NCBI GenBank assembly: GCA_030603805.1
Contig: JAUVXD010000009.1
Coordinates: forward strand, 1 to 64,000
DNA: 64,000 nt
Direction of reading: 5' to 3'
Source: Acholeplasmataceae bacterium
Lineage (GTDB): Bacteria; Bacillota_I; Bacilli_A; Acholeplasmatales; Acholeplasmataceae
A program made the translations under genes and the position numbers. Each line of letters starts with the position of its first letter. The stretch's first letter is position 1. Shown one piece after another: positions 17,985 to 62,705 of the stretch. The notes under the pieces are model-generated. The model saw nothing but the letters and a program-made list of their open reading frames with translations, did no database searches and was not told where the DNA came from.

Positions 17985-18935
17985 TTATGGACGCTTGTTT
18001 TGGAACTCTTGTATTTGTTCTTTAATTGCTTCTCTGCGTTGTTCCATGTCATTTAGAAAATCTTCAACAGCTTCATGATGTAGTTGTCTTCTTGCTTGTA
18101 CTTGAAGTTTGTATTCAAGTCTCAATGCTTCAGATTCAACAAGAAATTCTGCTCTTAAGGTTGCCATATCGAGTTTGAATGCCTCAATGAGTGCTGCAAG
18201 TTCATTTTCAAGTTCAGTGGTATCACCTTCAGCTGCTTCAATTTGAGCTTCTAAATCAGCTTTTTCTGCTTCAAATTCTGTAATAAGTGCTTCTTTTGCA
18301 GTTAAGAATTCTTCGCGAAGTCCTTGTGCAATAGTTTTCATTTCTTCACGAGTTGACTTAATGATCGCTTGTAATTCAGAAACTTCCATTTCTAATGCAA
18401 CTTCGAGTGTCAGTTCGTCATCAGCAAACATTGCTGCTTTAACTAAGAATAAGAACCCTGGAGTTACACCGTAACTTTCTGCTTCTGCTACAAAATCAGG
18501 AACAAATGCTTTATCTTGTCCACGACCAATGATTCCTCTATTTTCGAATGCATGATTGACATGTTCCTTAACTTTGTTTCTAATCTTTTCACCGAGTAAT
18601 GGATCTTTAGCTAAAGCTGTTATCGAAACAATAACTTCTTCAGATTCTACATCAATAAAACCAAGTTCGATTGATGTTTGAATGATAAGTTCAATGGCAG
18701 CATCTAAATCCATACCGATTAAATCAAGTTCAGCGAGTAAAACTTCGCCGTCTTCATTCAGTGCATTCGCATAGACAACTTTTTCACGTCTATTGACAAT
18801 CAGTTCAACACTTGGGTTAATATCTAAAGTCACATACGTGTCGGTTGCTGCTGATACAGAACCTGTACATCCAATAATGATAGTCACTAATGCCACGAGA
18901 AACATAAAACTAGAGATAAGTTTAAATCTTTTCAT
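17985..18935 (-). CDS. secreted/lipoprotein with RsgI-type middle domain and long coiled coil
   Basis: The 316-residue protein has a signal peptide of about 25 residues ending in IIIGCTGSVSA. The cysteine could be a lipobox, or SVSA a Sec cleavage site. Next is TYVTLDINPSVELIVN (about residues 32-47), the signature of the RsgI anti-sigma middle domain. In clostridial RsgI proteins the Asn-Pro bond of this motif is self-cleaved during signalling. The C-terminal half (about residues 175-310) is very rich in Glu, Ala, Leu and Lys and is predicted coiled coil. AAGGAGG precedes the chosen ATG. It is third in the operon with an ECF sigma factor and a membrane anti-sigma protein. Unlike RsgI it has no cytoplasmic sigma-binding part. 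The role as sensor is inferred. Confidence 0.75.
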   Translation of the reverse strand: MKRFKLISSFMFLVALVTIIIGCTGSVSAATDTYVTLDINPSVELIVNRREKVVYANALNEDGEVLLAELDLIGMDLDAAIELIIQTSIELGFIDVESEEVIVSITALAKDPLLGEKIRNKVKEHVNHAFENRGIIGRGQDKAFVPDFVAEAESYGVTPGFLFLVKAAMFADDELTLEVALEMEVSELQAIIKSTREEMKTIAQGLREEFLTAKEALITEFEAEKADLEAQIEAAEGDTTELENELAALIEAFKLDMATLRAEFLVESEALRLEYKLQVQARRQLHHEAVEDFLNDMEQRREAIKEQIQEFQNKRP

Positions 18936-18973
18936 TTTAAAAGCCTCCTTTTGGTTTTTACACTTAACATACA

Positions 18974-19012
18974 AATGAGACTTCACTTTTATTGGTGAAA
19001 TCTCATTTTTTT
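18974..19012. other. intercistronic hairpin between anti-sigma and RsgI-like genes
   Basis: A 12-pair stem with one mismatch (AATGAGAcTTCAC, 18974-18986, with GTGAAaTCTCATT, 18995-19007; 8-base loop). The run of Ts follows on the plus strand, where no gene ends, so on the coding (minus) strand it is not a classical terminator. It may stabilise or process the mRNA. Confidence 0.5.
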
Positions 19013-19020
19013 ACATATTT

Positions 19021-20109
19021 TTAATTATTGGGAAGATTAGGTCTTCCTCGGTTTTCACTCATTTGTCTGCCTTTTTCAAGTGTAAATGCAGGTCTCCCAG
19101 TCGGTTGAACATAAAACTGATATCCTGTTTCTTCATCGCTATGAACTCGAACTATCATTGTTCCTGTTTCTGGTTGACTGCCTTGGATTTGATAATTCAC
19201 TCGAATAACTTGCTCACTATTTTCTGTATCGATTAAAAATTGATATGTTCCAATAGATAAACCGCTCACAAATTTGATTTGGATGGCATGACGGTTATTG
19301 ACTTCAAGTGCAGTCATTTCAACAGTTTCTGTCAGTATACCATCTTGTGTGATTCTAATGGTGTATCTAGTCGCTTGTTCAGTTTTGATGAAAGTGACGC
19401 CTACATAATTGATTGCATCTTTATAGATACGATAAACTAAACGGTTTTGATTTTGAATATTTCCAATAGCAACCATCTGATACGTTTTTGATCCAAGTTC
19501 AATTTCGCCTGTTAAAGTGAATTCATCATCAATCATATTAATCACTTGGTTATATTTCATCTGATAGACAACTTCATGATTCAGTAAATCGGTTGTTTTA
19601 AATTGCATCCTGCGATTAAACCCTTGCTCGTTAATCGGTTCTTTTAGAATATTGAGTTGATTTTGACTTGATAATAGTTTTTCCATCATCTCCATGTATT
19701 TGCCAAGATCATTGATTTCCTGGGTGACTAGTGGATCTAAATTAAAACTCTGGAAAGTAGATAACAAAATATTTGATGGTGAACTGCTAAGTTCATACTC
19801 AAGTAGCCCAATTAAGCTTGTTGAAGAGACGGTTGATAATGCAATCGCTTCATCATAAATTTCTAAACTTGGTGTCACAGGAATGATAGGTTCAGAAGGT
19901 TCATAAAATATGGCAAACATTAAGATAAACACCATCGCACCGATTAGTCCTAAATAGATGGGTTTGATTTGCCATGAAAAACGTGGCTTTTGGATTACTT
20001 CTACAGGGGGTAAGCCTTGAACTCTTGCTAAAATCTCAGCTTGGACATCTTTGATTTCAACTTTTTTAGATTCAGTTTTGATCAGTTCAATCAATTGTTT
20101 CTTTTTCAT
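19021..20109 (-). CDS. single-pass membrane protein, probable anti-sigma factor
   Basis: This 362-residue protein has a short basic cytoplasmic N-terminus (residues 1-47), one membrane helix (YLGLIGAMVFILMFAIFY, about 51-68) and an extracytoplasmic domain of about 290 residues that I do not recognise. The start shares one base with the stop of the ECF sigma factor (TGATG). Sigma factor followed by single-pass protein is the usual order for a sigma / membrane anti-sigma pair, and that is the basis of the call. No zinc-binding HxxxCxxC motif is present, so it is not a ZAS-type anti-sigma. An RsgI-domain lipoprotein gene follows. Confidence 0.6.
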   Translation of the reverse strand: MKKKQLIELIKTESKKVEIKDVQAEILARVQGLPPVEVIQKPRFSWQIKPIYLGLIGAMVFILMFAIFYEPSEPIIPVTPSLEIYDEAIALSTVSSTSLIGLLEYELSSSPSNILLSTFQSFNLDPLVTQEINDLGKYMEMMEKLLSSQNQLNILKEPINEQGFNRRMQFKTTDLLNHEVVYQMKYNQVINMIDDEFTLTGEIELGSKTYQMVAIGNIQNQNRLVYRIYKDAINYVGVTFIKTEQATRYTIRITQDGILTETVEMTALEVNNRHAIQIKFVSGLSIGTYQFLIDTENSEQVIRVNYQIQGSQPETGTMIVRVHSDEETGYQFYVQPTGRPAFTLEKGRQMSENRGRPNLPNN

Positions 20110-20621
20110 CAGATGTCACCTGCCTTTTCCTTTAATTTTTTAATCGCTTTATTATAAATCCACAACACAGTTCCTAATGGTTTTTGAGTGATGTTTGCAA
20201 TCTCTTTAAATTTGAGTTCATTGATGACATGTAATACTACGATTTCTCTTTCGCTTTCTTCGAGTAAATCAAGTATTTTAAAGATTTGTGCATCATCTGT
20301 CTCTATTTCCTCTTGATAAGGGATGGTCTCTAAAAGTTCCTCTGAATAAACTTCTCTTTTTCTTTGGTTATATAAATTGATTGCTAAGTTTCTTCCAATG
20401 GTTGATAAATAAGCATAAGGATTTGAACCATCTTTATACTGATCAATTTTTTCTAAGAACTTAACATACGTATCTTGCATCAAATCTTCAGCAAGCGACC
20501 TATCTTTAATAACAGAAATAATGGCATAAAAAACTTGATTTTTCGTCAAGTTATAGAACGTGTCAAATGACTGATAATTACGTGATTTTAGTTCTTTAAT
20601 GATGACATCTATTCTATCCAT
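20109..20621 (-). CDS. ECF-type RNA polymerase sigma factor
   Basis: The 170-residue protein has only sigma regions 2 and 4. Region 2 spans about residues 15-85 (DLMQDTYVKFLEKI, then AYLSTIGRNLAINLYNQRKR) and region 4 about 105-165 (EIVVLHVINELKFKEIA, then GTVLWIYNKAIKKLKEK). This is the ECF layout, and it differs from SigI, the usual partner of RsgI proteins. It is the first gene of a three-gene operon with a membrane anti-sigma and an RsgI-type protein. It begins 95 bases after leuS, whose terminator hairpin lies between them, so it probably has its own promoter. I could not define that promoter with confidence. Confidence 0.88.
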   Translation of the reverse strand: MDRIDVIIKELKSRNYQSFDTFYNLTKNQVFYAIISVIKDRSLAEDLMQDTYVKFLEKIDQYKDGSNPYAYLSTIGRNLAINLYNQRKREVYSEELLETIPYQEEIETDDAQIFKILDLLEESEREIVVLHVINELKFKEIANITQKPLGTVLWIYNKAIKKLKEKAGDI

Positions 20622-29710: not shown

Positions 29711-30688
29711 ATGAAAGCAACCATTAGAGATGTCGCAAAGAAAGCGAATGTCAGTGTATCTACTGTTTCTAGAGTCATTAATCAAAAAGGTTATGTCCAT
29801 GAAGAAACCAAGGTATTAGTCAATAAAATTATTGCTGAGCTTGGGTTTATTCCAAATCAACTAGCACGAAGCTTAACCAATCGAAGTTCTAAAATTATCG
29901 GCGTTATTGTGCCCCATATTGGTCCATCATTTTATGGTGATCTTTTAGAAGGTATTGAATCTCAAGCGGCGGCTTATGGATATAAGATCATGTTTTGTCA
30001 TACTCAAGATGATCCTGATCGTGAACTCGAGTATTTAAAATTCTTTGAGCAGTATAACATTGAAGGCCTTATTATAGCATCAAACTTCTCTAATAGAGAT
30101 AAGCTCGCTGAACTCAATATTCCTGTGGTAACTGTGGATCATATCCTAGATGAAAATATTCCTTCTATAACATCAGATAATGTCAAAGGTGGCGCACTTG
30201 CTGCAAAAAAACTGATTGAAACTGGTGCTAAAAATATTTTAGTCTTTAGGGGCCCTTCCTTCTTACTGACAACGATGGAGCGTACGATTGGGTTCTTAAA
30301 TGAACTGAAAGCCCATCAATTGTTTGCTGATATCTTTGATTTTGATTTAATTAACCCAGATTTTAAACTCATTGAAGAAATCTTAAAAAACAACCCTCAT
30401 GTGGATGCAATCTTCACATTCTCAGATACTTTAGCTTTTGCTACACTTAACATTTTACAAAAACTAGGTAGAAAAGTTCCTCAAGATGTTTCATTAATTG
30501 GCTATGATAATACGCCATATTCCAAATGGGTTACACCTTCGATTACGACCATTCATCAATCGGTTAATTTTATGGGTAAACAGTCTTTCATTAATTTAAC
30601 AAGGCTCATTCGTGGTGTTGAACTTGATAGTTTACATGATATTATCGATGTCAAACTGATTGAACGAGAAACCACTAAAGCATCTTAA
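29711..30688 (+). CDS. LacI-family transcriptional regulator (MalR-like)
   Basis: The 325-residue protein has an N-terminal LacI helix-turn-helix (residues 1-25, TIRDVAKKANVSVSTVSRV) and a hinge helix ending in ARSLTNRSSKIIGV. A periplasmic-binding-protein-like effector domain follows to the end. It lies three bases after the cyclomaltodextrinase gene and in the middle of the alpha-glucan locus. Control of the locus in response to a maltodextrin is therefore likely but inferred. Candidate operators of LacI type occur at 27854, 38299, 45444-45502, 51795 and 62547. Confidence 0.9.
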   Translation: MKATIRDVAKKANVSVSTVSRVINQKGYVHEETKVLVNKIIAELGFIPNQLARSLTNRSSKIIGVIVPHIGPSFYGDLLEGIESQAAAYGYKIMFCHTQDDPDRELEYLKFFEQYNIEGLIIASNFSNRDKLAELNIPVVTVDHILDENIPSITSDNVKGGALAAKKLIETGAKNILVFRGPSFLLTTMERTIGFLNELKAHQLFADIFDFDLINPDFKLIEEILKNNPHVDAIFTFSDTLAFATLNILQKLGRKVPQDVSLIGYDNTPYSKWVTPSITTIHQSVNFMGKQSFINLTRLIRGVELDSLHDIIDVKLIERETTKAS

Positions 30689-55876: not shown

Positions 55877-57481
55877 TTAATCCATGTCAACATCAAAGCT
55901 TTCAAGAATACTCTTCTTTTCTGCTTTAGAATCGCCATGCTTCGTGAAAAACATAGTGACAAATGCGATTGCAACAAAGAATGTTGCATATGGGAATAAA
56001 GCTTTTTGATGAATTGTATCCATCAAGAATCCTGATAAAATCGGTGTTAAGATTTGAGCAGCCATTGAGAATGTGTAATAATACCCTGTATATTTACCTA
56101 CATTGCTGCCTTTAGCTAGTTCAACAACCATCGGATAGGAGTTCACATTAATGGTCGCCCAACCAATACCTGTGAGTCCGAAGACAATAAACATAATCCA
56201 TCCGGTATCTTTGGTTAAGAAAAAGACAGAACCAAAACATAAGGTTAAGAGGATAATTCCTGCAAGAATGGTCTTACGACGACCAAACTTCGTGGATAAT
56301 ATGCCAATTGGAATAAATGCGATAATCGCAGTGACATTGGCAACGAGTAGTGGGAGTGTAAAGCTTGGTAATTGAAGAATTTTTGGTGCATAATCAGAAA
56401 CTTTCGTCATGACTGCGTTATAGCCCATAAACCACAAGAAAACAGAAATTAAGATTAAATATAGAGATAACTTTTTATCTTTTGGAAGATCATGCATATC
56501 ATGCACATCATCATCAGCTTCTGATAAACCAAATTTTAGATCATCTTGAACGCGTTCTTCAACCATCTTAGGTTCATTTACTTTCCAAAGGAAAATCACC
56601 AAAATGATGAGCATAATGACCCCAACACCTACAAATGCCATGGTGTAGTTGACATAAGATCTACCGCCTAATCCAAAGGCAGTGAGTAATACAAGTGAGG
56701 TAACACCAGCTGCTGCACCCATCAAATTAATGATGGCATTGGCTTTAGAACGCAGTGGCTTCATGGTCACATCAGGCATTAAGGATACGGCTGGTGATCT
56801 AAAGACAGACATCGCAACGAGTGCAATAAATAAGACGCCAATAAAGACAATAAAATTCAGTGGGGAAGCTGCAGTCACTTGCCAAGCAAGATCACTTAAA
56901 TAACTATGATAATAGCCATCCATAAAGGATAAATCAACAGCAGTTAAATTACCTGTAGTTCTACCATTGATAATGAGTTGCATTTGATCGTATACACCAG
57001 ATTCCCAACGGTTATACATCGCTTCTGTGACTTCATTATTTACAAGTGCTAAATCACGTTCCGTCTTCATCTCGTTAATCAGACCATTCCAGAAAGCAAC
57101 AGAGAGTTTCACATCTGCTTCTGAATCAACAACAACCTCATATTTCTCAATGATTGTTGTTTGTTCAATTTTATTGGTTTGAATGTTATCGACAAATGAA
57201 AGTCCAATGAATGCAAATGCTGCAACCACAGTACCGACAATGACATAGGGTGTTCTTCGACCTTTTTTATGATTCGTGCGGTCTGAAAGTGCACCAAAAA
57301 GCGGTAACATGAATAATGCAAGCACGTTATCGAGTGCCATGACAACGCCTGACCACGTTTGATTGAGACCAAACTTGTCAATTAAAATCTTGGTAATAAT
57401 TGAATCATACGTCTGCCAAAATATGGTAATAATAAAGAAAGCTAAACCAACGTAAAACGTCTTTTTGTAATCGAGTTTCAT
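55877..57481 (-). CDS. MFS sugar transporter, SLC45/GPH-like
   Basis: The 534-residue protein has about 12 membrane helices and an MFS signature loop GALSDRTNHKKGRRTPY between helices 2 and 3. A hydrophilic stretch of about 110 residues (about 100-210) after helix 3 is unusually long for this family and should be extracytoplasmic. Relatives import disaccharides such as maltose or sucrose. Position beside polysaccharide genes fits, but the substrate is not proven. A TATAAT (57522-57527) and a weak CG-centred half-palindrome lie upstream. Confidence 0.78.
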   Translation of the reverse strand: MKLDYKKTFYVGLAFFIITIFWQTYDSIITKILIDKFGLNQTWSGVVMALDNVLALFMLPLFGALSDRTNHKKGRRTPYVIVGTVVAAFAFIGLSFVDNIQTNKIEQTTIIEKYEVVVDSEADVKLSVAFWNGLINEMKTERDLALVNNEVTEAMYNRWESGVYDQMQLIINGRTTGNLTAVDLSFMDGYYHSYLSDLAWQVTAASPLNFIVFIGVLFIALVAMSVFRSPAVSLMPDVTMKPLRSKANAIINLMGAAAGVTSLVLLTAFGLGGRSYVNYTMAFVGVGVIMLIILVIFLWKVNEPKMVEERVQDDLKFGLSEADDDVHDMHDLPKDKKLSLYLILISVFLWFMGYNAVMTKVSDYAPKILQLPSFTLPLLVANVTAIIAFIPIGILSTKFGRRKTILAGIILLTLCFGSVFFLTKDTGWIMFIVFGLTGIGWATINVNSYPMVVELAKGSNVGKYTGYYYTFSMAAQILTPILSGFLMDTIHQKALFPYATFFVAIAFVTMFFTKHGDSKAEKKSILESFDVDMD

Positions 57482-57573: not shown

Positions 57574-57604
57574 TAAAAAAAGATGCAGGATTGACCTGCA
57601 CCTT
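57574..57604 (-). terminator. terminator of the pectate-lyase lipoprotein gene
   Basis: Minus-strand stem AAGGTGCAGG / CCTGCATCTT (one G-U) with a 5-base loop and a T run, a few bases past the stop codon. Confidence 0.85.
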
Positions 57605-57609
57605 TAAAC

Positions 57610-60600
57610 TTAAGGATGGATCGGTTTTCCTGTTAAGGATAACCACTCAAAGGGTTGTTCTGTTGCACCTAATATGGCTTGATTTAAATAGGATTCTAAA
57701 ACATTCACTGGAACAAGCTCATAATTGGAGTAAGGTAAGACATCAAAGAAATTCCATGAAAACGGTAAGATGGGTTCTGAGTTTGCTCTCACAAAAGGTG
57801 TTCCCTCATCTTCTGATGACCCAAAGAAGATATAGTCATCTAAAATATATAAGGAATCTCTAACCATATATTTTCCAGTCATGGATGGATGGTCTCTACT
57901 CACCTGATTTGATTTAATGACTTGTGATACGCCCATAATAATCGAATTTTCTAGGAGGATTGCGCCATTTTCAGTTGTAACAAGCGCTTGATTGGTGAGT
58001 TGTCTATTATACTCTGCTTTTAAGAAAAGCGCTGTATAAGCTGACCTTACATAGTTTCTCATGCTATAAACATCAGAGGCGTCATAGATAGTGTTAAAGA
58101 TGTGAACATTACCACCTCTAAGTCTTGGGAAACGGTCTTGAAGATTTTTGATATATGAATTATAGATGGAAAGTGTAAATACATTGCCCGCTCTAAGTTC
58201 ACTACCACCTAAGAGAAAACCTTTTTTCTGGAAGCTGTTGAGCTCCATAATTTCTTGCATACTCATGCCTGCATTACGCATTTGATTGTAATAACTATAT
58301 GAACTGCGGTTAGCTTCTAAATAGTCAAACTGTGCCTTGATAAAGTCATTAGGTTCAAAAACTAAATGCATATAACTAATGGTTGCATTCACAACAGACT
58401 GAATGGTTGAACTTCCAGCTTTAAAGTCAATCAGTCCATCATAGGCTTTACCTAAAGTCATATGATCAAACCAAATGCCATTAACTTGTTCTATTGTGAA
58501 ATAATCCCAGTCATTAGAATCATAATTTCCTTTGGTTGCTTCATCCCATTCCCAAAGTTCATCAAATTTAAGATTTCTAATGACGATATTATTTGCTCGT
58601 TTAATTTGGAAGGATGCATGTCTGATGGTATGACCTGAATTTGAGAAAATCACTAAACCTTCGTTATATTTTGCTGTTGAGCCATCACGGTCTTGAATGA
58701 CAATTTTGCTGACACCTGTTTGTTTTAAAATAGGATGCATTTTAGGTAAGGCATGACGATCTAGATTTTTAAGGACACCAAACTCTGAAACAACTTCATC
58801 ATATCCTAAATCTAAATTACTTCTAATTTCGATAATTCTTGCAGCAGTTGTGCCTTTACTTGCTGAATTCTCAGCATTAATCGCATCCATTAAATCTTTC
58901 GCATTGTAGACGACGTAGTAGCCTGGGTCCCCTTCTTTAAGATTGGGAATCGAGACAGCACCACTGGCAAATCCAGCTAAAGCATAATCATCTTCACTGA
59001 AATCGACGGTGCCTGAAATAGCTTTAACTAAGACTTCAAATTCTTTAGTTAAGGTGATGCCACCTTTTGATATGGTTGCTGTCATAGAGACATGGATATC
59101 ATCTTGTTCATCTCGAGTCACAACGCCTTGATTCGTGATCACTGCTGGATTTGAAGATGTCCAAGTAATGGGAACGTTATACATCATTTGAACAAGGAAA
59201 AGATTGGATCTCACATCATTTTGGAAAGGAATTGAAAGCTCCTGATTAATGGTTTGGATTAAAACTTCATAATCAATAGGCGCTTCGGGATCGTATACAG
59301 ACTTACCTTGTAGTGTTTCGCTTGTTGACTCTATGAGGATGTTATCTAAATAAGTAATGGGTTCAGAGCTTGGTAAATTGTTATGCCCAACCACTCGAAT
59401 TCTGATTTTATTTGGATCAAGTGAACTCGCAAAACCTACACCACTAGAAGGCGTGATTTCTAAGAGCTGACTTTCAACTCTTACATAGTATTTATAGGTA
59501 TCATAGGTTGTGTCAAAAACAACAATGGCTTGATGAATGACATTGGGGATGACACTCAGTGTAGAGGCAGGAACAGCCGTTTCAGAACCGTCTTGATTTC
59601 GGTAGGTAAAGCGATTCGCACGATTTGCCCCTACTGTAAAAATACGTGTATTTTGGTGGATCAGTTCAATCGTAAATGATGCCCCACCAATACCTTGTTT
59701 AAAGTCAAAGACAAGCACATATCTGCCATCAGCAAGCACACTTAAACTTTGTTCGTAAATTGCTTCTGTGGCTGTTTCTGTGAGTAATAATAGACCATTT
59801 TCGATGATTGCTTGCCCAGGTTTAGTTTCCATCCATGAGGTAGAAGCTAAGTTTGTGCCTTCAAGATAGGTAAATGATTCTTCAAAAATGAGTTCACCTA
59901 ATGCTGTGTATTTGGCATAAAGTATGAGATCACTATAAAGATAGATTTGTGTCAAAGGTGTTAACAAAGTTTCATCGATATACCAATTGACAAAACGGTA
60001 GCCTTCAAGTTCTGGTCTTGGAAGTTGTAAGATTGGCTGGTTTTCATAAAATGAGATGGGTGCAACTATAGAACCTAATCCTGTATTAAATGTGATTTCA
60101 TAAAGTGTTGCATCTTGGTAAAGTGGGATGATGTTTAAATTGCTTGTTATAGGTGTTTGGAAATCAAAGGGTACATCACCGATATACCATCCAATAAAGA
60201 TCTTTCCTAAAATTTGAGGTGTATCTGGTTCTGTTGCAAACTCACCTTCACTGACAATTTGGAGGATGCCATTCACGGATACCGTGTAGGTTGGTAATGC
60301 TTCCCATTTGGCATAAAGTGTTTGAGGTTCAGTTATCATTTGATTGAAATCAAAGGGTACTGCAAGTGATGCATCTTGATACCATCCAATAAATAAAAAT
60401 CCTGGATGATTTGGATTGGGTGGTACGGTTAAAGTTGTATTTTCTTTAACATAAAGGATAACTTCTGTTTGTCCAAATCCTATAATCAGTGTCACTGGAT
60501 GGCTATCTTTAGGTGAAAATCCCAGTGTTGATAGATGATAAAAATGATTTAAGTATACCCATCCATAATCTGGGGATAAGGTAGGTAGATGATCTTCCCA

Positions 60601-62511
60601 CCAATCAAGATTGAGCATTTCAACATCAAAAATGAGAAATGAACTTGCTAAGTTTTGCTTATTGAGCGAGCCTGTGGTTGATAACCCAGCTGCATAGATA
60701 TTTTCTGCAATTTGAACAGATAAATCGCCTGATACATGTCCAAAATCGCGATTGGTAGAAACCATGACACCCGTGAGCATAACATTTTTAACAGATACGC
60801 CTGACAAAGACTGATTTCTGCCGACAATACCACCTAAATACTGTGCAGTCGATAAATCGACATCTAAGACAGCACGTTCTATTTGGATGCTCACGGTACC
60901 CTTAATTTCACCATAAAGACCACCAACACGATTTTGTCCTCTAACAGTAACACCTTTTAAATTGATATCAGCAATCAAGACATGACCACCATCTGTCATA
61001 CCAATAAGCCCGCCTGAAGCAGAACTTTGATTCGTGACTGTTGTGTTTTCGATCAGTATTTGATTAATGGATACTGTGTTACCTGGTTTTGTATAACCAA
61101 TGAGTGCGCCAACACCGTTGGATGAATTACCTAAAATAGACGAGTTCATCAGTTTTACATTTTGAATTTGAACATTGGTCCCGTCGGTTTCTCCAATTAA
61201 AATACCCGCACGATTGGTTGAGGTTATATTGAAGTTATCTATGATTAAATCAAAAATTGTAAAGTTATTCACTCTTGAAAATAGACCTGTACGATCAGTA
61301 CCATGTAAGGTAAGATTCGATAATGTTTTACCATTACCATTAATTGTGCCTTTGAAATTATGATTTGTATAGGTCCAAGTATGATTTGCAAAATCAATGT
61401 CATTTGCAATGTAATAAAGGCCATCTAAACCACTGTTAGATAGTTGATTAAATTCTTGTGCCGTTGATATGGGTATGCCATCTGGAATAACGATGATGAC
61501 TTCCCATTTGGCATAGAGTGTTAAATTAGACTCTATTTCTGTTTGTAGGTTAAAAGGAATTAAAAGTGTTTGATCGATATACCAACCTATAAAGGTGTGT
61601 CCCGATTTTACTGGTTCAGGTAAACTTGATAACACACTACCAAAAGGAATCCCTGTGATTGGCGGTAAAGTAGGTTCAAGATTATCAAAATCAATCGTGA
61701 AAGTGATTTCTTCTATGGCTTGCCATTTTGCATAAAGCATCAAATCATGTTGTATGGTTGAGCCTAAAACAAATAGCATGGTCTTTAACTCATCTAAATA
61801 CCAGCCTAGGAACATATAGCCAGTTCTTATAGGGTCTGGTAAAACATCGATGGTTTCACCTTCAGGTATTGAAGTGATGGCTGCTAAAGGCAATCCACCT
61901 TGAGTATCAAATGTAATACGATAAATATTTTCGATCAAAACTTCTTCCCATTTGGCATGAAGCGTTAACGAAGATGTTAATATTTGATTAAAATGATAGG
62001 GTGTGGAAAAGGATGCTTCTAAATACCACCCAATAAATACAAAACCCTCTTTTGTGGGTGGTATTGGTGAAAGGACGATTGCACCTTCTTGATATTGCTT
62101 GCTTTCAATTAAAGTTCCACCATATGTCATAAAATTCACTGTAAAAAAAGATTGTTCTTCAGCAAGAGCACGCACGACGACTAAAAAGGTTTTCGTGACA
62201 CTGACACCCTCTTTTGAAAGTGTTGCAATCAGTTCAACTGTTTGATCTCCAAATTCATGAGATGGTCTTGTAACGATACCCATCGATGTAATCCAAGTTG
62301 AATTAGATGACCAAGAGACTTCAACTTGCTGCCCAAGTACTTCAAGTGACTGAATTAAGTTTAGATTAATTTCTGTCTCTAAAGGTAAAATAATAGCTTC
62401 TGATGCCTGGGTTAAAAAAGCTTCTATGTCTTCCTTATTGTCATTTTGACATGCAATGAGGGTCATTGCTATGGTGATGATGAAGATGACTAAGATGAGT
62501 TTTTGTTTCAT
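57610..62511 (-). CDS. giant lipoprotein with InlB-type repeats and a family 1 pectate lyase domain
   Basis: The 1633-residue protein has a lipobox LIAC (Cys21). From N to C (approximate residues): an atrophied bacterial Ig domain (27-115); three InlB/Flg_new repeats ending in YAKWE-type motifs (120-340); a GLUG-like beta-helix region of repeated short motifs (350-620); three more InlB-type repeats (670-870); a jelly-roll-like domain (875-1060); a second atrophied Ig (1070-1167); and a parallel beta-helix pectate lyase (1174-1610). The lyase shows WFDHMT (the vWiDH motif), DGLIDFK, and DRFPRLRGGNVHIFN with the catalytic RxPRxR arginine. It should bind and cleave a pectin-like or other uronic polysaccharide at the surface. 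It has a strong promoter with an operator at the start site. Confidence 0.88.
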   Translation of the reverse strand: MKQKLILVIFIITIAMTLIACQNDNKEDIEAFLTQASEAIILPLETEINLNLIQSLEVLGQQVEVSWSSNSTWITSMGIVTRPSHEFGDQTVELIATLSKEGVSVTKTFLVVVRALAEEQSFFTVNFMTYGGTLIESKQYQEGAIVLSPIPPTKEGFVFIGWYLEASFSTPYHFNQILTSSLTLHAKWEEVLIENIYRITFDTQGGLPLAAITSIPEGETIDVLPDPIRTGYMFLGWYLDELKTMLFVLGSTIQHDLMLYAKWQAIEEITFTIDFDNLEPTLPPITGIPFGSVLSSLPEPVKSGHTFIGWYIDQTLLIPFNLQTEIESNLTLYAKWEVIIVIPDGIPISTAQEFNQLSNSGLDGLYYIANDIDFANHTWTYTNHNFKGTINGNGKTLSNLTLHGTDRTGLFSRVNNFTIFDLIIDNFNITSTNRAGILIGETDGTNVQIQNVKLMNSSILGNSSNGVGALIGYTKPGNTVSINQILIENTTVTNQSSASGGLIGMTDGGHVLIADINLKGVTVRGQNRVGGLYGEIKGTVSIQIERAVLDVDLSTAQYLGGIVGRNQSLSGVSVKNVMLTGVMVSTNRDFGHVSGDLSVQIAENIYAAGLSTTGSLNKQNLASSFLIFDVEMLNLDWWEDHLPTLSPDYGWVYLNHFYHLSTLGFSPKDSHPVTLIIGFGQTEVILYVKENTTLTVPPNPNHPGFLFIGWYQDASLAVPFDFNQMITEPQTLYAKWEALPTYTVSVNGILQIVSEGEFATEPDTPQILGKIFIGWYIGDVPFDFQTPITSNLNIIPLYQDATLYEITFNTGLGSIVAPISFYENQPILQLPRPELEGYRFVNWYIDETLLTPLTQIYLYSDLILYAKYTALGELIFEESFTYLEGTNLASTSWMETKPGQAIIENGLLLLTETATEAIYEQSLSVLADGRYVLVFDFKQGIGGASFTIELIHQNTRIFTVGANRANRFTYRNQDGSETAVPASTLSVIPNVIHQAIVVFDTTYDTYKYYVRVESQLLEITPSSGVGFASSLDPNKIRIRVVGHNNLPSSEPITYLDNILIESTSETLQGKSVYDPEAPIDYEVLIQTINQELSIPFQNDVRSNLFLVQMMYNVPITWTSSNPAVITNQGVVTRDEQDDIHVSMTATISKGGITLTKEFEVLVKAISGTVDFSEDDYALAGFASGAVSIPNLKEGDPGYYVVYNAKDLMDAINAENSASKGTTAARIIEIRSNLDLGYDEVVSEFGVLKNLDRHALPKMHPILKQTGVSKIVIQDRDGSTAKYNEGLVIFSNSGHTIRHASFQIKRANNIVIRNLKFDELWEWDEATKGNYDSNDWDYFTIEQVNGIWFDHMTLGKAYDGLIDFKAGSSTIQSVVNATISYMHLVFEPNDFIKAQFDYLEANRSSYSYYNQMRNAGMSMQEIMELNSFQKKGFLLGGSELRAGNVFTLSIYNSYIKNLQDRFPRLRGGNVHIFNTIYDASDVYSMRNYVRSAYTALFLKAEYNRQLTNQALVTTENGAILLENSIIMGVSQVIKSNQVSRDHPSMTGKYMVRDSLYILDDYIFFGSSEDEGTPFVRANSEPILPFSWNFFDVLPYSNYELVPVNVLESYLNQAILGATEQPFEWLSLTGKPIHP

Positions 62512-62546
62512 GATTTCTCCTAAAAAGTCAATTAGAAACGGATTAA

Positions 62547-62560
62547 AGTAATCGTTTTCA
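62547..62560. promoter_or_regulatory. operator at the pectate-lyase promoter
   Basis: Minus strand TGAAAACGATTACT fits TGWNANCGNTNWCA except the last base. It is part of a longer near-palindrome (GAAAC at 62535 to GTTTTC at 62559). It lies right after the -10 box, over the predicted transcription start. Confidence 0.6.
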
Positions 62561-62567
62561 TACTTAC

Positions 62568-62596
62568 ACTATAAACAATAAAACAGGTGATGTCAA
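62568..62596 (-). promoter_or_regulatory. promoter of the pectate-lyase lipoprotein gene
   Basis: Minus-strand -35 TTGACA (62591-62596), consensus, 17-base spacer, -10 TATAGT (62568-62573). Confidence 0.75.
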
Positions 62597-62676
62597 TCGT
62601 TTTTCTTTAGAAAACTATTTATTTCGGACATCGTCTATCATATTAGATGATTCAGTAAAGTGATGGACGAATCAAC

Positions 62677-62705
62677 AAAAAAGACCATCCCAAGATGATC
62701 TTTTT
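62677..62705 (-). terminator. terminator of the 2-oxoacid oxidoreductase operon
   Basis: Minus-strand stem AAAAAGA-x-CATC / GATG-x-TCTTTTT (one mismatch) with a short loop and T-rich tail, about 10 bases after the gamma subunit stop. Confidence 0.7.

Follow-up and report, generated by a model that had tools for sequence, protein, structure and literature searches.

Gene and host genome

The window, that is the whole 64,000-nucleotide stretch of DNA that was analysed, lies in a genome of 2.06 Mb which was 99.9% complete (G000). A gene in the window encoded a multidomain pectate-lyase lipoprotein of 1633 residues, as had been proposed earlier from the letters of the DNA, and its reading frame was intact with an ATG start (Table 1). 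Four orthologues of matching domain order (1564-1655 aa) were identified in the same genus (G002, G005, G006 and G008), for which 19 genomes were searched, so chance or an assembly artefact could be excluded. Relative G002 is HGW-Tenericutes-2 and relative G005 is Peloplasma aerotolerans M4Ah. TGA served as stop in 6 of the 21 window genes examined, thus the standard genetic code applies.

Table 1. Position of the lyase gene, its domains and control elements, and of the related loci in the rest of the genome
Feature	Position	Strand	Basis or remark
Multidomain pectate-lyase lipoprotein gene, 1633 aa	57610..62511	-	uninterrupted ORF from ATG; full-length orthologues in four relatives
Signal peptide of lipoprotein type, with lipobox LIAC up to Cys21	62449..62511	-	sequence
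Atrophied bacterial Ig domain 1, aa 41-118	62158..62391	-	Pfam aBig_2, two stretches; aa limits approximate
InlB-type (List_Bact_rpt) repeats 1-3, aa 123-340	61492..62145	-	Pfam PF09479; InlB chains 2y5p/1m9s (phmmer)
Beta-solenoid, aa 341-680	60472..61491	-	AlphaFold pLDDT 87, pTM 0.87; Foldseek
InlB-type repeats 4-6, aa 681-871	59899..60471	-	Pfam PF09479
Concanavalin/galectin-like beta-sandwich, putative carbohydrate-binding, aa 872-1064	59320..59898	-	AlphaFold, Foldseek
Atrophied bacterial Ig domain 2, aa 1086-1165	59017..59256	-	Pfam aBig_2 at 1098-1164
PL1 pectate lyase catalytic domain, aa 1170-1633	57613..59004	-	match to PelN (5GT5), residue-by-residue check
Promoter TTGACA, 17 nt, TATAGT	62568..62596	-	11/12 match to consensus; best of 16 regional matches
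LacI/CcpA-type operator ATGAAAACGATTACTT	62546..62561	-	just downstream of -10
Intrinsic terminator after the lyase gene	57579..57605	-	11-bp stem, then T run
MFS transporter, possible product importer	55877..57481	-	Pfam MFS_1/MFS_2
PL1-PL2 operon	G000:C26:18073-33081		L004, L005, L078
Uronate region	G000:C7 about 357-378 kb		L053, L077

The host had been taken for a probable wall-less bacterium, and this view was confirmed. The peptidoglycan transpeptidase family PF00905 had zero matches in the 99.9% complete genome (the control was positive in 10/14), and P. aerotolerans, the type strain of the genus, is a cell-wall-less anaerobic mollicute isolated from a mud volcano, with UBA2284 as the genus cluster (PMC11122141).

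An MFS transporter gene lay beside the lyase gene and was kept as neighbour in G002 and G006, and P. aerotolerans had a different one according to gene order. In G002 and G008, a second lipoprotein with InlB repeats and aBig domains (818-835 aa) was located directly after the lyase gene (L037 13984-16491 and L039 12071-14527), and it was absent from the window.

Signal peptide and non-catalytic domains

Anchoring as a lipoprotein was well founded, since the lipobox ended in Cys21 and a Cys behind a hydrophobic stretch was present in all orthologues of the giant lipoprotein. Six stretches of List_Bact_rpt (E 5e-67) and two aBig_2 domains (E 5e-29) were revealed by Pfam, which agreed with the six InlB-type repeats and two atrophied Ig domains of the original prediction.

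A GLUG-like helix had also been proposed, which had to be given up: a Pfam scan of the giant lipoprotein up to E 10 gave no match to the GLUG family, and the modelled fold was a beta-solenoid of the IgA1-protease-N-terminus type. The best PDB matches of this solenoid in Foldseek were 3n6z and IgA1 proteases with TM up to 0.65, and the only Pfam match of the region was a sub-threshold one to the N-terminus of the M26 IgA1 protease. The fold of aa 341-680 was like the N-terminal solenoid of IgA1 protease (3n6z, 6xjb and 7uvk); unlike these M26 enzymes, the window protein lacked the zinc protease motif HExxH, so a role as M26 protease was rejected for the giant lipoprotein.

The beta-sandwich was missing from the earlier description of the protein and was revealed by the structure model, which was of moderate confidence (core pLDDT about 80-90, mean 69). 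Lectin, galectin and GH131 folds were its Foldseek matches, and the domain may bind carbohydrate. It was related to a domain in the 1899-aa giant protein of the PL2 operon described below (hhalign E 9e-9). A possible kinship between this concanavalin (ConA)-like domain and the operon's 288-aa lipoproteins was rejected (hhalign probability 0.5%).

PL1 catalytic domain

Pectate_lyase_4 (PF00544) matched the protein with 40.1 bits against a cut-off of 24 (Pfam, E 4e-10). The closest solved structure was PelN of Paenibacillus sp. 0602 (5GT5), with a phmmer E of 2.7e-93 over aa 1174-1610 and 165 identical residues in 412 aligned positions (40%). The whole catalytic domain could be aligned, and the vWiDH-type and RxPRxR motifs were common to both proteins, with WFDH at aa 1347 and DRFPRLRGG at aa 1459 of the window protein. 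PelN differs in being a secreted enzyme with 445 aa in the mature form, whereas in the window protein the PL1 domain closes a lipoprotein of 1633 aa, after a stalk and binding-like domains.

In the residue alignment, which used the numbering of PMC8091735, the three calcium-binding aspartates D1336, D1358 and D1362 corresponded to D152, D174 and D178 of PelN, the catalytic R1460 to R276, and the supporting K1430 and R1465 to K245 and R281. None of the calcium-binding acids was lost, and the same six residues were present in nearly all relatives checked, with Ser at the first Asp in L020. Mutation of each of the six residues left an almost completely inactive PelN protein, and PelN acts on polygalacturonate (PGA) and methylated pectin (PMC4007691). 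The WFDH motif and the arginine of RxPRxR, on which activity had been predicted before, were both kept, and the domain is again predicted to be active. The giant lipoprotein is very probably an active surface pectate lyase, and one that would almost certainly cut plant pectin.

The two PL1 proteins of the host genome fell in separate lineages in the PL1 tree. With PelN, G050 and G045 on long branches in this tree, a separate acquisition of the giant's PL1 domain is no more than possible.

Promoter, operator and terminators

The gene had been thought to have a consensus promoter blocked by an operator of the starch regulon type. The promoter was found as expected (Table 1), and TGAAAACGATTACTT directly follows it. 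TTGAC, TATA and the operator core TGAAANCGNTTACTT were invariant in five orthologous promoters from five species, and the conservation of TGAAANCGNTTACTT is a strong footprint of a putative LacI- or CcpA-type operator, placed where it would block transcription. The cre-like pattern, which ATGAAAACGATTACTT matches, occurred 5 times in the window against 1.0 expected.

The sites of the starch genes in the window had the same type of core (LacI/CcpA) as the lyase operator and different flanks, and the exact pattern GAAANCGNTTACTT was rare, with 4 sites in the genome against 1 in the control, too few to define a regulon and giving no regulon shared genome-wide; these results place the operator in the LacI/CcpA class without tying it to the starch regulator. 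Another site with the operator pattern (L071) gave no interpretable lead.

Between the lyase gene and the 2-oxoacid oxidoreductase genes upstream of it lay a terminator-like stem (62678-62705). Another conserved element, ATAGACGATGTCCG in the window (about 62630-62655, minus strand), was located upstream of the -35 and also occurred before the orthologues. The promoter of the second PL1 gene carried a different conserved, palindrome-like element, GTCCGTATATATAGAC. In the promoter of the MFS transporter (55877-57481 in the window and 16638-18242 in L037), a conserved TATAAT was followed by AACGATTT, which is perhaps an operator of a shared type.

Pectin and uronate pathway

Two further regions of the genome were related to pectin (Table 1). 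The first gene of the operon on contig C26 encoded a second PL1 lipoprotein of 483 aa (G000:C26:18073-19524). It was followed by a solute-binding protein (L078), two ABC permeases, a 288-aa lipoprotein, a PL2 exolyase (PF06917, Pfam E 1e-158; PDB 5a29, E 4e-106), a small aBig lipoprotein, and finally the 1899-aa protein with InlB repeats and solenoids. The PL2 exopolygalacturonate lyases of known structure (PDB 5a29, 6ojk and 2v8i) are kin of this partner enzyme and not of the window protein. The operon was kept across the genus and also occurred in a second family of the order, and P. aerotolerans carried both this operon (L047 and L057) and an orthologue of the giant lyase (L041).

The uronate catabolism genes that the original prediction had suggested looking for were present in the region on C7, which contained KduD, KduI, an IclR regulator, KdgK, YhcH, KDPG aldolase, GH28, ABC genes, a pectinesterase-family protein, UxaC, a UxaA-type dehydratase and UxaB. 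Scores above the NCBIfam cut-offs were obtained for KduI, KduD, tagaturonate reductase, glucuronate isomerase and Eda. The proteins assigned as KdgK and UxaA belonged to the PfkB kinase family and the GD_AH family, respectively, neither passing an equivalog cut-off, and the pectinesterase-family gene was far below the pectinesterase equivalog cut-offs. Two GH88/105 proteins were encoded on C8 and C10. On C10 (132000-139400, L055), GH88/105 was clustered with a GPH symporter and two proteins of 631 and 723 aa without Pfam match, and this cluster is possibly another uronic-glycan locus. From its gene content, the pathway behind the surface lyase appears nearly complete.

The uronate genes and the lyase gene were on different contigs, linked through the shared genome and not through an operon. 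Among 61 relatives, PL1 and KduI co-occurred (15/17 vs 17/44, Fisher p 5e-4), and so did PL2 and PL1 (p 4e-8), with shared ancestry inflating both significances. A strong PL1 match with no KduI match was seen in G008 (85% complete) and G014 (98% complete).

Proposed mechanism and alternatives

The favoured reading, to which a probability of roughly 0.85 is given, is a membrane-anchored, calcium-dependent, PelN-like PL1 endo-pectate lyase on a long lipoprotein stalk, together with a downstream uronate route. The gene, its domains and catalytic residues, the pathway genes and the conserved promoter and operator are seen in the sequence, and we infer the lyase activity, the substrate, the binding roles of the non-catalytic domains and the identity of the repressor. 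The lipid at Cys21 would anchor the giant protein in the bare cytoplasmic membrane of the mollicute, with the Ig domains, InlB-type repeats and beta-solenoid forming a stalk for spacing and adhesion. Polysaccharide could be kept by the concanavalin-like sandwich beside the catalytic domain, where PL1 would split polygalacturonate via beta-elimination. The products could be trimmed by the second PL1 and its partner PL2 exolyase, whose genes lie elsewhere together with those of an ABC importer with binding protein, and monomers could be freed by GH28 and GH88/105 enzymes. Then KduI-KduD or UxaC-UxaB-UxaA would lead to KDG, which would be converted by KdgK and KDPG aldolase into pyruvate and glyceraldehyde 3-phosphate. 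The operator just downstream of the -10 would be the seat of a LacI-family or CcpA-like repressor.

The architecture of binding plus cleavage agreed with the surface adhesion-plus-cleavage machine proposed at the beginning, and the weight of its two parts could be read differently. The giant protein might mainly be an adhesin or surface antigen, with the InlB repeats and solenoid binding cells or matrix and cleavage being secondary. Repeats, solenoid and sandwich made up about 70% of the length, InlB-type repeats were combined with an IgA1-protease-like solenoid, and the solenoid was weakly similar to the SRRP adhesins of L. reuteri. Conservation argues for the opposite weighting and makes this alternative unlikely: between the window protein and its orthologues, identity was highest in PL1 (72-76%), followed by the ConA-like domain (55-68%) and InlB repeats 1-3 (14-51%), and repeats 1-2 were the least conserved, parts of them being absent from the P. 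aerotolerans orthologue (G005).

For the substrate of the lyase, another galacturonate polymer, such as a bacterial or algal exopolysaccharide in sediments, was considered as the main natural one. The plant or gut plant-fibre niche suggested before was not supported, as the cultured relative P. aerotolerans came from a mud volcano and not from plants (PMC11122141). This origin and the weakness of the pectinesterase-family gene speak for another substrate. PL2 exolyase, GH28, GH88/105, KduI/KduD and UxaABC nevertheless form the standard homogalacturonan set, and the activity of PelN, the closest solved relative, on PGA and pectin (PMC4007691) also argues for homogalacturonan, so that a different main substrate seems improbable. 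A catalytically dead PL1 domain that only binds uronan is very improbable, with every catalytic and calcium residue kept, the domain strongly conserved, and nothing found in favour of it. The PelN-like lyase acting on homogalacturonan is thus preferred.

Comparison with known systems and significance

The aBig-PL1-solenoid lipoproteins of other Acholeplasmataceae (L019 in G032 and L021 in G029) were similar in that PL1, about 43% identical to that of the window, and a related solenoid were joined in one lipoprotein. They differed in their length of about 1050 aa, in having the solenoid C-terminal to PL1, and in that no ConA-like domain was detected in them. In G272, a ConA-like domain preceded aBig and PL1. 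The recombination of the same modules across G032, G029 and G272 suggests that capture domain and PL1 could be a working unit.

Mollicutes are usually regarded as reduced parasites or simple sugar fermenters. The kind of enzyme is known, while its architecture is unusual and its host unexpected. No description of a pectate lyase in Acholeplasma or Mollicutes was found in the literature at the level of titles and abstracts, and pectin was not mentioned anywhere in the P. aerotolerans paper (PMC11122141). Pectin use had been suggested for Mollicutes before, since degradation by extracellular enzymes was predicted for the rumen mollicute 'Organism 1' on the basis of GH28 (PMC7807696). That rumen organism was described with GH28 polygalacturonases, one of them with CBM32, and not with PL1 or PL2 lyases.

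A tentative joint reading, held at somewhat less than even odds, takes the wall-less bacteria of the Peloplasma clade as specialists in polysaccharide degradation with a mollicute counterpart of a pectin-utilisation locus. In the same reading, giant lipoproteins on a naked membrane would capture and cut homogalacturonan and pass the fragments to ABC importers, and the PL1-solenoid fusion would have evolved repeatedly within the family, with either order of the two domains, as a general capture-and-cleave design. If true, the presence of a full pectin route and of lyases anchored at the surface would widen mollicute ecology to polymer degradation. The lineage is free-living with a cultured type strain, and living on pectin is a lifestyle barely described for this group.

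Other polysaccharide-related loci in the window

A large starch/glycogen/maltodextrin locus was located at 23577-51289, with several amylase-family enzymes, a phosphorylase, an ABC importer and a LacI regulator (29711-30688). RsgI-type systems in clostridia sense polysaccharides. At 17985-20621, a small sigma factor was encoded together with a 362-aa protein and one with an RsgI_M domain, which was unexpected in a mollicute.
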